Under the pieces are notes generated by a model that worked only from the letters and a program-made list of their open reading frames with translations, was not told the origin of the DNA and did not search any database. From Pandoraea fibrosis (GTDB lineage: Bacteria > Pseudomonadota > Gammaproteobacteria > Burkholderiales > Burkholderiaceae), in contig NZ_CP047385.1 of NCBI RefSeq assembly GCF_000807775.2, positions 5,084,001 through 5,148,000 on the forward strand: a stretch of DNA of 64,000 nucleotides, read 5' to 3'. Positions 2,117 to 6,318 of the stretch are shown here, in pieces. The translations under genes and the position numbers were made by a program. Every line of letters begins with the position of its first letter. Positions within the stretch are counted from its first letter, which is position 1.

Positions 2117-4858
2117 TCACTGCCACCCAAACCGTCTTGCAAACCTACCTTTCATCAGTTGCGTCAGCACGGCGTAGGCGAGCAGGATAGCGGCGAGCAT
2201 CGGGAAGTACGCGAGCGGCAGGGCCTGCATCTTGAACGTGTCGGCGAACGGCGACATGGGCAGCATCAGGCCAATCAGCATCACCGCCCCCGTCATCAGC
2301 AGCAGCGGCCATGCAGCGCGGCTCTGTACGAACGGAATGCGGCGCGTGCGGATCAGGTGCACGATCAGCGTCTGCGACAACAGCCCCTCGACAAACCATC
2401 CTGACTGAAAGAGCGTCTGGTGCTCAGCGCTGTTCGCCCCGAACAAGTGCCACATCGCCAGGAACGTCAGCACGTCGAACACCGAACTGATCGGGCCGAA
2501 GAACACCATGAAGCGCGAGAGATCCGCCGGGTTCCAGCGTTGCGGACGGGTCAGTTGTTCGTCATCGACGTTGTCGAACGGAATCGTCGTCTGCGACAGG
2601 TCGTACAGCAGGTTCTGCGTCAGCAACTGCAACGGCAACATCGGCAGGAATGGCAGGAACGCACTCGCGATCAACACCGAGAAGACATTGCCGAAGTTCG
2701 AGCTGGCCGTCATCTTGATGTACTTGAGCATGTTCGCAAACGTGCGACGCCCCTCGATCACCCCCTGCTCGAGCACCATCAGGCTCTTTTCCAGCAGGAT
2801 CAAATCGGCCGCTTCCTTGGCGATATCCACCGCCGTGTCCACCGAAATACCAATGTCCGCTGCGCGCAGCGCCGGCGCATCGTTGATGCCGTCGCCCATG
2901 AAGCCGACCACGTGACCGTTCGCGCGCAACATGCGCACGAGCCGCTCCTTATGCGCCGGCGTGAGCTTGGCGAATACGTTCGCGCGCTCGACCGTCTGCG
3001 ACAGTTCGGCATCGCTCATCGCCTCGATGTCCTCGCCCAGCACGCAGCCATTCACCTTCAGCCCCACTTCGCGACAAACCTTCGCCGTCACGAGGTCGTT
3101 ATCGCCGGTGAGCACTTTGACATCGACACCCGAAGCCGCAAGCGCCTTCAAGGCCGGCGCCGTCGACTCCTTGGGCGGATCGAGAAACGCGATGTACCCC
3201 ACGAGAATCAGTTCGCTTTCGTCAGCGATCCCATAGCGCTCGCGCACTGGCGGCAGATGACGCGTCGCCACGGCCACCACGCGCAACCCCTCGGCGTTCA
3301 GATCGGCCGTTACGCGACGCAGCCGCGCCAGCACGTCTGGCGTGAGCGGCTCGACATTGGCGCCATGCTGCACGCGATCGCACACCGCCATCACCTCTTC
3401 CACTGCGCCCTTGCAGATCAACTCGTGATGCGCACCGTTTTCGCTGACGACCACCGACATGCGACGGCGCTGAAAGTCGAACGGAATCTCGTCGATCTTG
3501 CGATAACGATTGACCACATCCAGACGCTGATGCAGTTCGGCATGGTCGAGCACTGCGACATCGAGCAGGTTCTTCAGGCCGGTCTGGTAGAAGCTGTTGA
3601 GATAGGCGTACTCAAGCACGTCTTCAGAGCCATGGCCCCAGACATCCGTGTGACGTTCGAGACAGATCCTGTCCTGCGTGAGCGTGCCAGTCTTGTCCGT
3701 GCACAGCACGTCCATCGCGCCGAAGTTCTGGATCGCGTCGAGCCGCTTGACGATCACCTTCTTGCGCGAGAGCACGACCGCGCCCTTCGCCAGCGTGGCC
3801 GTCACGATCATCGGCAGCATTTCCGGCGTCAGACCGACCGCCACCGACAGCGCGAACAGCGAAGCTTCGAGCCAGTCGTGTTTGGTGAAACCGTTGATGA
3901 GCAACACGATGGGCGTCATGACCATCATGAAGCGGATCAGCACCCACGACACGCGATTCACTCCCTGCTGGAACGACGTGACCGTCGGTTGCAAGGCGGT
4001 AACGCGCTGCGCGAGCGAGCCGAAGAACGTGCGCGCGCCGGTCGCCACCACGACCGCCGTGGCCGAACCGCTGACAACGTTCGTCCCCATGAACGCGAGG
4101 TTGTCGTAAGCGAGCGGATTGCCGCCGCCAGACTCGCATGCGTGCGCGAATTTCTCGACAGGCAGTGCCTCGCCCGTGAGCGCCGATTGCGAGACGAACA
4201 GGTCCTTGGCGGCGAGAATGCGCACGTCCGCCGGAATCATGTCTCCGGCGGCGAGCAGTACGATGTCGCCCGGCACCAGTTCGGCCAACGGGATTTCGCA
4301 GCCCATGCGGCCTGCCCGGCGGACAGGCTCCGCCTCGACATCGCCGTCCGTTGGCACCTCGCGACGCAGCACGGTAGCCGTGGTGCTCACCATTGCCTTG
4401 AGCTTCTCGGCTGCCTTGTTCGAACGCGCTTCCTGCACAAATCGCAACACCGTGGAAATGATCACCATCGACGCGATGATGATCGTTCCCTCGGTGTCGT
4501 CGGTCGCGTATGACACAGCGGCCAGTGCCGAGAGCAGCAGATTGAACGGATTGCGGTAGCAGTTGAACAGGTGCCGCCACCAGGGCAACGGCTTCTCGTG
4601 CTCGACTTCGTTGGCGCCGACATGGGCACGCACGGTGGCAGCTTCATCGTCGGACAAACCGTCTCGGGTGGTGCCCAACCGTGCGAGCAGATCCGGACCG
4701 GTGTCGCGGGCAGCCTCGACCAGACCGGGTGGTGCCTCGTGGCCATGCGCTGGCGCATCGAGGGTTTCGAGCATGTCGCGGCGACGGAAGAAGCGCAGGC
4801 CAAGGCGCGCGCCAAGCACCGCAATCAGTCGCTCGCTGAGCGTGAGAGCTTGTTGCAT
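2117..4858 (-). CDS. mgtA: Magnesium-transporting P-type ATPase
   Basis: A 913-residue P3B-type ATPase for Mg2+ uptake across the inner membrane. Visible signatures are the TGEALPVEK actuator loop, the phosphorylation motif DKTGTLT (Asp near residue 388) and the GDGINDAPAL hinge (near 654), with about ten membrane segments. The start at 4858 is set by AGGAGG seven bases ahead of ATG; open frame continues upstream to 5140 but lacks this. Length fits MgtA/MgtB (about 900). The gene follows an exceptionally long leader (4859 to about 5497) with terminator and antiterminator elements, suggesting attenuation control, perhaps by Mg2+ as in enteric mgtA. PhoP control is possible but no clear PhoP box is seen. 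Confidence 0.93.
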   Translation of the reverse strand: MQQALTLSERLIAVLGARLGLRFFRRRDMLETLDAPAHGHEAPPGLVEAARDTGPDLLARLGTTRDGLSDDEAATVRAHVGANEVEHEKPLPWWRHLFNCYRNPFNLLLSALAAVSYATDDTEGTIIIASMVIISTVLRFVQEARSNKAAEKLKAMVSTTATVLRREVPTDGDVEAEPVRRAGRMGCEIPLAELVPGDIVLLAAGDMIPADVRILAAKDLFVSQSALTGEALPVEKFAHACESGGGNPLAYDNLAFMGTNVVSGSATAVVVATGARTFFGSLAQRVTALQPTVTSFQQGVNRVSWVLIRFMMVMTPIVLLINGFTKHDWLEASLFALSVAVGLTPEMLPMIVTATLAKGAVVLSRKKVIVKRLDAIQNFGAMDVLCTDKTGTLTQDRICLERHTDVWGHGSEDVLEYAYLNSFYQTGLKNLLDVAVLDHAELHQRLDVVNRYRKIDEIPFDFQRRRMSVVVSENGAHHELICKGAVEEVMAVCDRVQHGANVEPLTPDVLARLRRVTADLNAEGLRVVAVATRHLPPVRERYGIADESELILVGYIAFLDPPKESTAPALKALAASGVDVKVLTGDNDLVTAKVCREVGLKVNGCVLGEDIEAMSDAELSQTVERANVFAKLTPAHKERLVRMLRANGHVVGFMGDGINDAPALRAADIGISVDTAVDIAKEAADLILLEKSLMVLEQGVIEGRRTFANMLKYIKMTASSNFGNVFSVLIASAFLPFLPMLPLQLLTQNLLYDLSQTTIPFDNVDDEQLTRPQRWNPADLSRFMVFFGPISSVFDVLTFLAMWHLFGANSAEHQTLFQSGWFVEGLLSQTLIVHLIRTRRIPFVQSRAAWPLLLMTGAVMLIGLMLPMSPFADTFKMQALPLAYFPMLAAILLAYAVLTQLMKGRFARRFGWQ

Positions 4859-4929
4859 CGGATACCTCCTGAAATTGCCCCCGGGGCACCCGTGATTCGC
4901 CGGTGCCCCAGGAAGGTCGTGAAGCGGGT

Positions 4930-5100
4930 TCAGCCCGCCGTTTTCTCGCGGCGCACGAACGCCCGCAGCCATTGCCCGACACGCGTCGCAGCACCGGGTC
5001 GCACCGCCTTGGCGGCCTCCGGATGCGGGTCGACGTGATAGTGATGCAGGCACTCGCCCGGCAGCATCAGGGCTTGCGGATTGCCTCCGCGAAGGGTCAT
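4930..5100 (-). CDS. Small open frame in the mgtA leader
   Basis: A 56-codon frame lies between the leader terminator and mgtA. It starts at an ATG at 5098-5100 and ends 71 nt before mgtA; no strong ribosome binding site is visible. The peptide contains CLHHYHVDPHPEAAKAV, His- and Pro-bearing, and a basic C-terminus. Enteric mgtA leaders encode a proline-containing peptide (MgtL) whose translation senses proline and Mg2+; the V-D-P-x-P stretch here is only a loose parallel. The frame could be a leader peptide, a small protein or chance. Confidence 0.35.
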   Translation of the reverse strand: MTLRGGNPQALMLPGECLHHYHVDPHPEAAKAVRPGAATRVGQWLRAFVRREKTAG

Positions 5101-5302
5101 GGAGTAACGGAACACGATAAATCTCCCGGCCGCGCGGCATTCCGTCCGGCGCAGGCGATGCGTTCGGGGTTCACGACCGGCGCCTGTCTGGGACAGACGG
5201 TCTGAAAACGAACACACGCGCACGACGGGACGGCCCGAACGGCAAAGGTAATGCGAATGAGGGAGCGTGCTACGAGAGACGGACGCTATCGATATGGCCC
5301 AA

Positions 5303-5330
5303 GAAAACCCTTTGGCGCACGGGCCAAGGG
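5303..5330 (-). terminator. Intrinsic terminator inside the mgtA leader
   Basis: On the minus strand CCCTTGGC (5330-5323) pairs with GCCAAAGGG (5316-5308, one bulged A) around a six-base loop and is followed by TTTTCTT. No minus-strand gene lies upstream (the next gene, at 5716, reads away), so this terminator can only act on the mgtA leader transcript. Its 3' arm can instead pair with 5369-5359. Confidence 0.7.
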
Positions 5331-5358
5331 GACAAGGCAATCGAAGCGGACATCAGAG

Positions 5359-5497
5359 GTGCGCGCCAACCCGACTATGCGAGTCAGCGGCGGGGAAGTA
5401 CCCGGGGACTAACTCGCGGTGATGGTGTCGACCTGTGTCGACCGGCAACTACCACTAGAACTACTGTCCACGGAAGGACCTCCTGAGAGCTATGACG
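5359..5497 (-). promoter_or_regulatory. Structured 5' leader of mgtA, riboswitch-like
   Basis: Transcription probably begins near 5497, just after a minus-strand TAGAAT at 5508-5503. The first 120 nt contain several local helices: GTCC/GGAC near 5478-5466, a GTCGAC pair with ACAG loop near 5441-5426, and CTGACT/AGTCGG around 5387-5371. TTGGCGCGCAC (5369-5359) can pair with GTGCGCCAA (5320-5312), with a two-base bulge, and that would break the terminator at 5303-5330. Aptamer, antiterminator and terminator in this order is riboswitch architecture. I do not recognise the family; resemblance to the M-box (ykoK) is too loose to claim. Confidence 0.55.
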
Positions 5498-5502
5498 GCG
5501 CG

Positions 5503-5508
5503 ATTCTA
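5503..5508 (-). promoter_or_regulatory. Probable -10 box of the mgtA promoter
   Basis: TAGAAT on the minus strand. No good -35 element lies at 16-18 bp (TTTTCT is nearest), while TTGTCA at 5538-5533 is too far away. That pattern is compatible with an activator-dependent promoter. Confidence 0.4.
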
Positions 5509-5715
5509 CCTCCGAGTGCGTCGAAAGAAAAGTGACAATTCAACGTGTTACAAAATGATGACAAATGCAACTTTCCAACGGAAAGCGGCTCAGTCAGAAT
5601 CCGTCATGTTTTCGTCACAAACCGCCTGCCGGCGGCCGTCGATGCGCCGGCACTGCGTGTGCAGCCCGGTAGCGTCCCAGACGCTCGGCAGTCATTTCTC
5701 GCCCTCCCGGACTTC

Positions 5716-6318
5716 ATGGATTCGCTCAACCGCGCCCTCTTTCTGGCCATCAATGCCTCGCCCAATGTGAGCGAAGGCGAACTGGCCGTCGCCATCTTCC
5801 TCGCCAAGTACCTGATTGTCCTGCTCCCGGTGGGTCTGGCCACCCTGTGGCTGGCGGGCGGGCGCGACCGCGAAGGCGCCGTTCACGGACTGCTGGGGGT
5901 GGCGCTCGTGCTGCTGATCAATTTCGTGATCGGGCTGGCGTGGGCCGAACCCCGGCCGTTCGTCGTCGGCCTCGGCACGAACCTGCTGGCCCATGCGCCG
6001 ACGAGCGCGTTTCCCAGCAATCACGCGTCGATCATGTTCACCTCGGCATTCGTCCTGATGGGCACCGTCGCGCGCACTCCGCGTCTGCTCGGCCGGTTGC
6101 TGCTGCTTTGTGCGCTGCCAGTGTGCTGGGCACGCGTCTACCTCGGCGTTCATTGGCCGCTCGACATGCTCGGCGGGCTGGGCGTATCGATCGTGGTCGC
6201 ACTCATCATGCGCACGGCGAGCGCACGGGAAACGAGCCGCATTGTCTCGGCAGTTCTGGAAGGCATCTATCGCCGCCTGATGGCATGGCCGATTGCACGC
6301 GGCTGGCTGCGTCGCTGA
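5716..6318 (+). CDS. ybjG: Undecaprenyl-diphosphatase, PAP2 family (YbjG/BcrC-like)
   Basis: A 200-residue membrane phosphatase that would recycle undecaprenyl diphosphate to the monophosphate carrier for peptidoglycan and O-antigen synthesis. The three PAP2 signature blocks are visible: AEPRPFV (block 1), SAFPSNHAS (block 2, PSNH in place of PSGH) and WARVYLGVHWPLDM (block 3, catalytic His and Asp). The N-terminus, LNRALFLAINASPN, matches the start of E. coli YbjG. An upstream in-frame ATG at 5545 would add 57 residues of unrelated, non-hydrophobic sequence, so ATG 5716 is preferred although its ribosome binding site is weak. It is divergent from mgtA. Confidence 0.85.
   Translation: MDSLNRALFLAINASPNVSEGELAVAIFLAKYLIVLLPVGLATLWLAGGRDREGAVHGLLGVALVLLINFVIGLAWAEPRPFVVGLGTNLLAHAPTSAFPSNHASIMFTSAFVLMGTVARTPRLLGRLLLLCALPVCWARVYLGVHWPLDMLGGLGVSIVVALIMRTASARETSRIVSAVLEGIYRRLMAWPIARGWLRR

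Follow-up and report, generated by a model that had tools for sequence, protein, structure and literature searches.

The leader of mgtA in the window (the whole 64,000-nucleotide stretch of Pandoraea fibrosis DNA that was analysed) is probably a member of a widespread leader-peptide RNA family controlling Mg2+-uptake genes in Burkholderiales and Pseudomonas. Judged from comparison of leaders, the conserved switch appears centred on a short upstream open reading frame, uORF1, rather than on a terminator. The parts that this comparison shows are uORF1 itself, a hairpin within it (P1), a hairpin 3' of it (2:3), a complementarity centred on its stop codon and an association with Mg2+-transport genes.

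The MgtA protein is up to 97% identical to that of named relatives, and its gene starts about 645 nt from the TAGAAT box (5508-5503), which bears out the distance of about 640 nt given by an earlier sequence-only reading of this DNA. That reading was also right that the upstream gene is divergent, a long ORF lying at 5545-6318 (+). The box takes the form TARRAT across Pandoraea and TACAAT at the same place in other genera; a good -35 element for TAGAAT was not seen, the sequence TTGTCA being 24 nt distant. The mgtA strand of the leader (~640 nt) holds no recognisable long gene except the 61-residue uORF2, whose product gave no match in a Pfam search and which is absent from locus L116 though mgtA is present there. 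In the alignment of 27 Pandoraea leaders, strong conservation covers the first 160 nt and does not extend to the terminator region. The folding energy of the 206-nt window leader was not lower than that of shuffles (z -0.29), and RNAalifold on the Pandoraea leaders alone gave mutually conflicting folds.

A PhoB-box-like direct repeat, TTGTCATCATTTTGTAAC (window 5547-5564), lies beside the divergent ORF. It sits between that ORF and mgtA and is kept in most of the Pandoraea leaders displayed. By eye, the divergent ORF has the appearance of a PAP2-type phosphatase.

Table 1. Features of the mgtA leader region, in window coordinates.
Feature	Position	Strand	Basis
mgtA, P-type cation ATPase	2117-4858	-	Pfam E1-E2 ATPase and cation-ATPase domains
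GC-rich hairpin, uORF2-mgtA interval	4883-4909	-	Sequence; arms co-vary by eye
uORF2, GTG start, 61 aa (MFRYSMTLRGGNPQALMLPGECLHHYHV...)	4930-5115	-	Present in most Pandoraea leaders displayed
CU-rich element CGTAGCACGCTCCCT, invariant	5260-5274	-	GTAGCACGCTCCCT same in 27 aligned Pandoraea leaders
Terminator-like hairpin CCCTTGGCCCGTGCGCCAAAGGG (5330-5308) and T-rich tail TTTTCTTGGG (5307-5298)	5298-5330	-	Sequence
Leader core, conserved	5345-5505	-	Strong conservation over 27 aligned Pandoraea leaders
Hairpin 2:3	5361-5391	-	Covariation and position, 3' of uORF1 stop
Segment 3 CGGGTTGGCG, partner of segment 2	5364-5373	-	Covariation in A3
Segment 2 CCGCTGACTCGC, pairs with segment 1 or 3	5379-5390	-	Complementarity
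Segment 1 GCGAGTTAG, contains uORF1 stop codon	5409-5417	-	Complementary to segment 2
uORF1, GTG start, peptide VDSSSSGSCRSTQVDTITAS, stop TAG	5409-5471	-	Sequence and conservation
P1, hairpin within uORF1 (GTCGAC-ACAG-GTCGAC)	5427-5442	-	Covariation in A1
P0, small hairpin over uORF1 start codon (GTCC/GGAC)	5466-5479	-	Pairing counts
Shine-Dalgarno AGGAGG of uORF1	5479-5484	-	Sequence
Candidate -10 box TAGAAT	5503-5508	-	Sequence

Three features had escaped the sequence-only reading: uORF1, the hairpins that covary, and GTAGCACGCTCCCT, which is invariant. uORF1 is open in all 62 distinct core sequences (68 loci less 6 duplicates), where it has 19-23 codons and varies in length by whole codons. 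In the wider family, a pattern scan found a uORF of 10-23 codons in 158 of 164 collected members, 155 of these 158 with a Shine-Dalgarno-like stretch. The N-terminal motif of the peptides is widely retained, and their length and C terminus are variable. The window peptide, VDSSSSGSCRSTQVDTITAS, has no proline and two aspartates, and prolines are few in other members too. Several serine and cysteine codons are present in uORF1, placed early, far 5' of the stop codon and the switching segment that holds it. An attenuator that gauged the charging of Ser or Cys tRNA at this Ser/Cys-rich peptide start would make use of these codons; however, their distance from the switching segment, and the presence of transporters rather than Ser/Cys synthesis genes downstream, make such a device very unlikely.

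Two small hairpins accompany the reading frame. P0 can form its four pairs in 63 of the 77 distinct regions collected from the family, against 54.3 +/- 1.9 (maximum 60) with permuted arms, and the choice of Asp or Gly as second codon tracks a different upstream arm of the hairpin. In alignment A1, three of the six pairs of P1 are changed on both sides (in 23, 19 and 1 sequences).

Pairing of segments 2 and 3 is strongly supported by covariation. By position and model, hairpin 2:3 was predicted in 61 of the 62 A1 members or their relatives, an invariance that is partly selected because the 40 non-Pandoraea loci were found via the exact segment 2+3 pattern. A3, which comprises 38 leaders of other genera drawn from matches to model R1 (built from A1) and so leans towards the 2:3 structure, gave 12 pairs for this hairpin, six of them with both-side change, and 94.3% of cells paired. 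For P0 and hairpin 2:3 together, 91.9% of cells in A3 are paired and 54 are changed on both sides, against 13.8 in shuffles (0 of 500 as high), and this covariation vanishes when the partner is slid by 1-3 columns.

Complementarity between the stop-codon region and the 5' arm of the hairpin was examined by a duplex test. Among the 158 uORF-bearing members, 148 have a hairpin 12-38 nt past the stop, and 38 non-redundant ones were used. The mean duplex energy was -17.6 kcal/mol (n=38), compared with -13.2 for swapped and -12.3 for shuffled partners; 35 of the 38 were better than their own shuffle mean, and in 24 at most 3 of 60 shuffles were as good. Furthermore, complementarity to the 5' arm has its optimum at the stop codon in these representatives. 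For the alternative pairing 1:2, complementarity is supported by position and predicted energy; covariation of its own was absent in A1 and slight in A3. Predicted folds of the window disagree, 5500-5295 yielding 1:2 and 5500-5351 yielding 2:3 whether the stop region was masked or unmasked, and some Herbaspirillum uORF stops fall upstream of segment 1.

A core that binds Mg2+ (or Mn2+) directly, with the uORF secondary, could profit from the two possible alternative helices and would account for a nucleotide conservation in excess of coding need, for example near TGTTCGAGT and in P1. We nevertheless regard an ion riboswitch as unlikely, since the uORF stays open in 62 of 62 sequences despite length changes, its stop codon is where the complementarity peaks, and no riboswitch in Rfam gave a match.

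The sequence-only reading had proposed a riboswitch acting through an intrinsic terminator and an antiterminator. A terminator-like hairpin with T-rich tail is indeed present at 5330-5298; this hairpin or a T-tailed variant occurs in 13 of the 27 Pandoraea leaders (16 of 27 carry a terminator-like site of some kind under a laxer scan), and the count of such sites in 4500-6300 is at chance level (2 against 1.1 +/- 1.1 in shuffles). The supposed antiterminator pairing of 5369-5359 with the terminator did not stand: in the window, pairing of segment 3, which includes these positions, with downstream sequence was equalled by 21 of 60 shuffles, and among 34 representatives a single one paired better than its shuffles, with no more than 3 of 60 equalling it. 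As a general antiterminator it was rejected, being at chance level. Pairing of the uORF1 Shine-Dalgarno sequence with the linker 5' of hairpin 2:3 was likewise discarded as chance (in 5 of 37, no more than 5 among 100 dinucleotide shuffles did as well). No conserved output element was thus found among the terminator, the segment 3 partner and the Shine-Dalgarno/linker pairing in the leaders compared. With a lineage-specific terminator and a chance-level antiterminator pairing, the riboswitch terminator mechanism is unsupported as a conserved one. In alignments of related leaders, a check that had been suggested, P0, P1 and 2:3 covary and the terminator hairpin is not conserved. CU-rich stretches similar in kind to the invariant Pandoraea element are seen by eye 3' of the hairpin in other family members. 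Excess of C over G downstream of the hairpin, considered as a sign of Rho loading, was set aside: it is present in 11 of 14 members and small in most of these.

By blastn, the leader is present in 28 of 32 Pandoraea genomes, and the Pandoraea alignment holds the 27 of these 28 loci that have MgtA downstream. The one left out (L108, genome G002) keeps the leader, uORF1 and uORF2 despite a missing mgtA, with no MgtA match in 1,963 nt past segment 2; mgtA has apparently been lost there, and its control region has stayed. Weak blastn matches at five further loci (L133-L137) were rejected, having no mgtA or uORF2 match; four sites among L134, L135 and L137 were not leader-like by eye.

The exact segment 2+3 pattern occurs in 68 of 398 Burkholderiaceae genomes, 28 of Pandoraea and 40 others. 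At these 40 other loci the next ORF belongs to the OprB cluster in 38 (that of L204 is short) and in neither L182 nor L194, and an NRAMP gene lies on the opposite strand in 23. Among the proteins of these loci, five were verified by Pfam as OprB, a family annotated as carbohydrate porins, and two as NRAMP. The single NRAMP that was matched against solved structures came far closer to 7qia, the EleNRMT structure, than to any other chain (E 4.6e-47; next chain 2.9e-16). This same protein has Thr, Ala and Trp at the Mg2+-type positions as placed in PMC8806188.

A pattern scan, run without shuffle control, detected a leader-like uORF on the NRAMP strand at all 23 NRAMP loci and also at 10 of the 17 others. 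Model R2, at E up to 1, matched second leaders at 15 of the 23 and 7 of the 17, respectively; its 60 matches over the 40 loci comprise 38 of the 40 first leaders and these 22 second leaders, with no match elsewhere in 295,552 bases. At several of the 17 non-NRAMP loci an ABC-ATPase-like ORF (by eye) lies 3' of the second leader. Second leaders precede an ABC transporter in L184, L187, L188, L190, L191 and L202, as do the leaders of L234 and L241; the permease is Pfam-confirmed in L234, and in the other loci the transporter is assigned by similarity or eye. The ABC transporter behind the leader is a candidate Mg2+-related importer.

R1 matched 14 of 399 Burkholderiales genomes, where the window and 11 of the 13 others precede mgtA, NRAMP or OprB, and at E up to 0.01 it matched 54 of the 69 named mgtA loci that lie outside Pandoraea. 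The training set of R2 was 38 leaders, 36 of them preceding mgtA and two OprB, with none from Burkholderiaceae; in a genome search it matched the window core at E 7.7e-9. At E up to 0.01 it matched 61 of the 69 mgtA loci, 34 of which were in its training set, leaving 27 of 35 untrained loci, several of these being near-copies of trained ones. The mgtA matches include Pseudomonas, Herbaspirillum, Collimonas, Duganella, Aquabacterium, Pigmentiphaga and one Phytobacter.

Among 398 Burkholderiales genomes, R2 gave 32 matches in 30 genomes, and 30 loci were retained: 19 before mgtA (window included), 5 before OprB, 1 before a CorA-like gene (PF01544) and 2 before an ABC permease, one of the two Pfam-confirmed (PF00528), together with L230 at a contig edge and the partial matches L249 and L250. 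Phylum-wide, 11 of 398 genomes matched, and mgtA follows at four loci, all from one genus related at class level. These tallies are lower bounds, since no more than seven candidates per genome were scored, under strict filters. No target gene is in view at L220, L221, L230, L249, L250 and L258-L260; a leader-like uORF is present in L221 and L230 despite the missing target. The same architecture appears before mgtA, NRMT-like NRAMP, OprB, CorA-like and ABC-transporter genes across Burkholderiales, and before mgtA in Pseudomonas. The sequence-only reading had suggested a different class of Mg2+-responsive leader in Burkholderiaceae; that suggestion of a putative Mg2+ response in a class of its own fits the lack of a relevant Rfam match and the recurrence of Mg2+-uptake genes behind the leader, and the class reaches beyond that family.

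At two of the wider loci, L210 and L211, the leader is separated from mgtA by an ORF bearing the motif ARPM(I/V)T(D/E)DA and, at its N terminus, a signal-like sequence. L237 has an OprB gene fragment in that position (49% identity, E 1e-17), as though a porin had decayed and mgtA had taken its place or come after it.

Further copies were sought in the same genome. A second mgtA paralogue (56% identity) is preceded by a stretch that is leader-like by eye, with a weak R1 match (E 0.58) and the uORF MNSDASSSRPLID closed by a stop; R2 gave no match there, and in the duplex test 60 of 60 shuffles were as good as its stop region. A third copy (L252, G000:C1:2975717-2975865) matched R2 at E 2.6e-5, has the uORF MGSCSSSTQASAMSGEALAR closed by a stop and precedes a 126-residue protein without Pfam match; its stop region was not above shuffles (23 of 60 as good). 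MerR-like and MFS-like ORFs (by eye) lie 3' of the gene for this protein.

These targets bear on two other explanations. A leader independent of low Mg2+ and answering another shared signal (Mn2+, envelope stress or phosphate) would fit the carbohydrate porin annotation of OprB, the PhoB-like repeat upstream in Pandoraea and the frequent transport of Mn2+ by NRAMP family members, but mgtA and one CorA-like gene are among the targets, and the closest chain to the NRAMP examined is of the Mg2+ type, so that we hold this explanation to be improbable. The widely kept N-terminal motif of the peptide, the short RNA that the terminator of some Pandoraea would release and the leader of L108, kept without mgtA, are what a trans-acting small regulatory RNA or a functional small peptide as main product might leave; the variable length and C terminus of the peptide and the tight tie to particular downstream genes make that extremely unlikely.

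In line with the sequence-only reading, the leader matches neither the M-box nor the enteric mgtA leader. Rfam gave no relevant family at gathering score in the window, none at E up to 10 in 4800-5700, and no M-box or enteric mgtA leader match in two sets of 4 and 11 further family loci. No published description of the leader or peptide was found in the literature covered, which stops short of most subscription papers, and the string MGTCSS was absent among the papers listed. The family is thus apparently undescribed, within a known kind of translation-coupled leader attenuators.

In classical trp-type attenuators, the position of the ribosome on a short ORF chooses between pairings 1:2 and 2:3. 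A ribosome on the short uORF could make the same choice here; unlike in those attenuators, the switching segment lacks a run of regulatory codons, there is no conserved intrinsic terminator and transporters lie downstream. The M-box (ykoK) riboswitch senses Mg2+ and has Mg2+-transport genes as its targets, a likeness to the present family, which differs in having a uORF and no Rfam match in the window or in selected members. The yybP-ykoY Mn2+ riboswitch is a metal-responsive leader of the same bacteria that found no match in the present leader itself. One such riboswitch lies at L180:6776-6903 (-) (59.4 bits), ~2 kb past the OprB gene.

In Salmonella and E. coli, translation of the uORFs MgtL and CorL lowers expression of the downstream mgtA and corA, and the repression is Rho-mediated in several reported cases, according to PMC11552253. 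The present leader resembles these systems in its length, its place before Mg2+-transport genes and its uORF, and its RNA may likewise fold in alternative ways. In contrast to the Pro/acid-rich enteric peptide, the uORF1 peptide is neither; moreover, the stop codon here lies within the switching helix, Rfam gives no match, and the targets include NRMT-like NRAMP, OprB and ABC genes. The Salmonella leader has been used as a Mg2+ sensor in Pseudomonas, and the available part of PMC11218974 makes no mention of a native one.

By this analogy, the leader is most likely a translation-coupled attenuator of Mg2+ uptake, MgtL-like in action and with a different peptide. The ribosome would translate a uORF of 10-23 codons that ends, with its stop codon, inside segment 1 or immediately 5' of it. 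Parked at the stop codon, it would mask segment 1 and so leave segment 2 free to pair with segment 3; with poor translation of the uORF, segment 1 could pair with segment 2 in competition with hairpin 2:3. We infer Mg2+ as the signal, the direction of the switch and its output step from MgtL and CorL. With ample Mg2+, efficient uORF translation would end transcription in the leader (OFF), whereas at low Mg2+ failing translation would switch the gene ON. The output would probably be through Rho, perhaps with the intrinsic terminator in some Pandoraea; the CU-rich stretches 3' of the hairpin would suit Rho and prove nothing.

It is possible, at somewhat less than an even chance, that this beta/gamma-proteobacterial RNA family gauges Mg2+ by how well the ribosome finishes a Ser/Cys-rich peptide whose stop codon lies in the switching helix, and that it ties together a Mg2+ regulon of MgtA, NRMT, a CorA-like protein, OprB serving as a Mg2+ channel of the outer membrane, and an ABC importer that would represent a new kind of Mg2+ transporter. 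If so, mgtA in Pseudomonas and Burkholderiales would have a native Mg2+ control, and one RNA signature would mark out a Mg2+ regulon, making the roles of the OprB porin and the ABC transporter in Mg2+ uptake testable. It would furthermore add a second example of Mg2+ sensing through translation, one whose peptide does not resemble MgtL, and would help to separate sensing by the ribosome from the content of the peptide.
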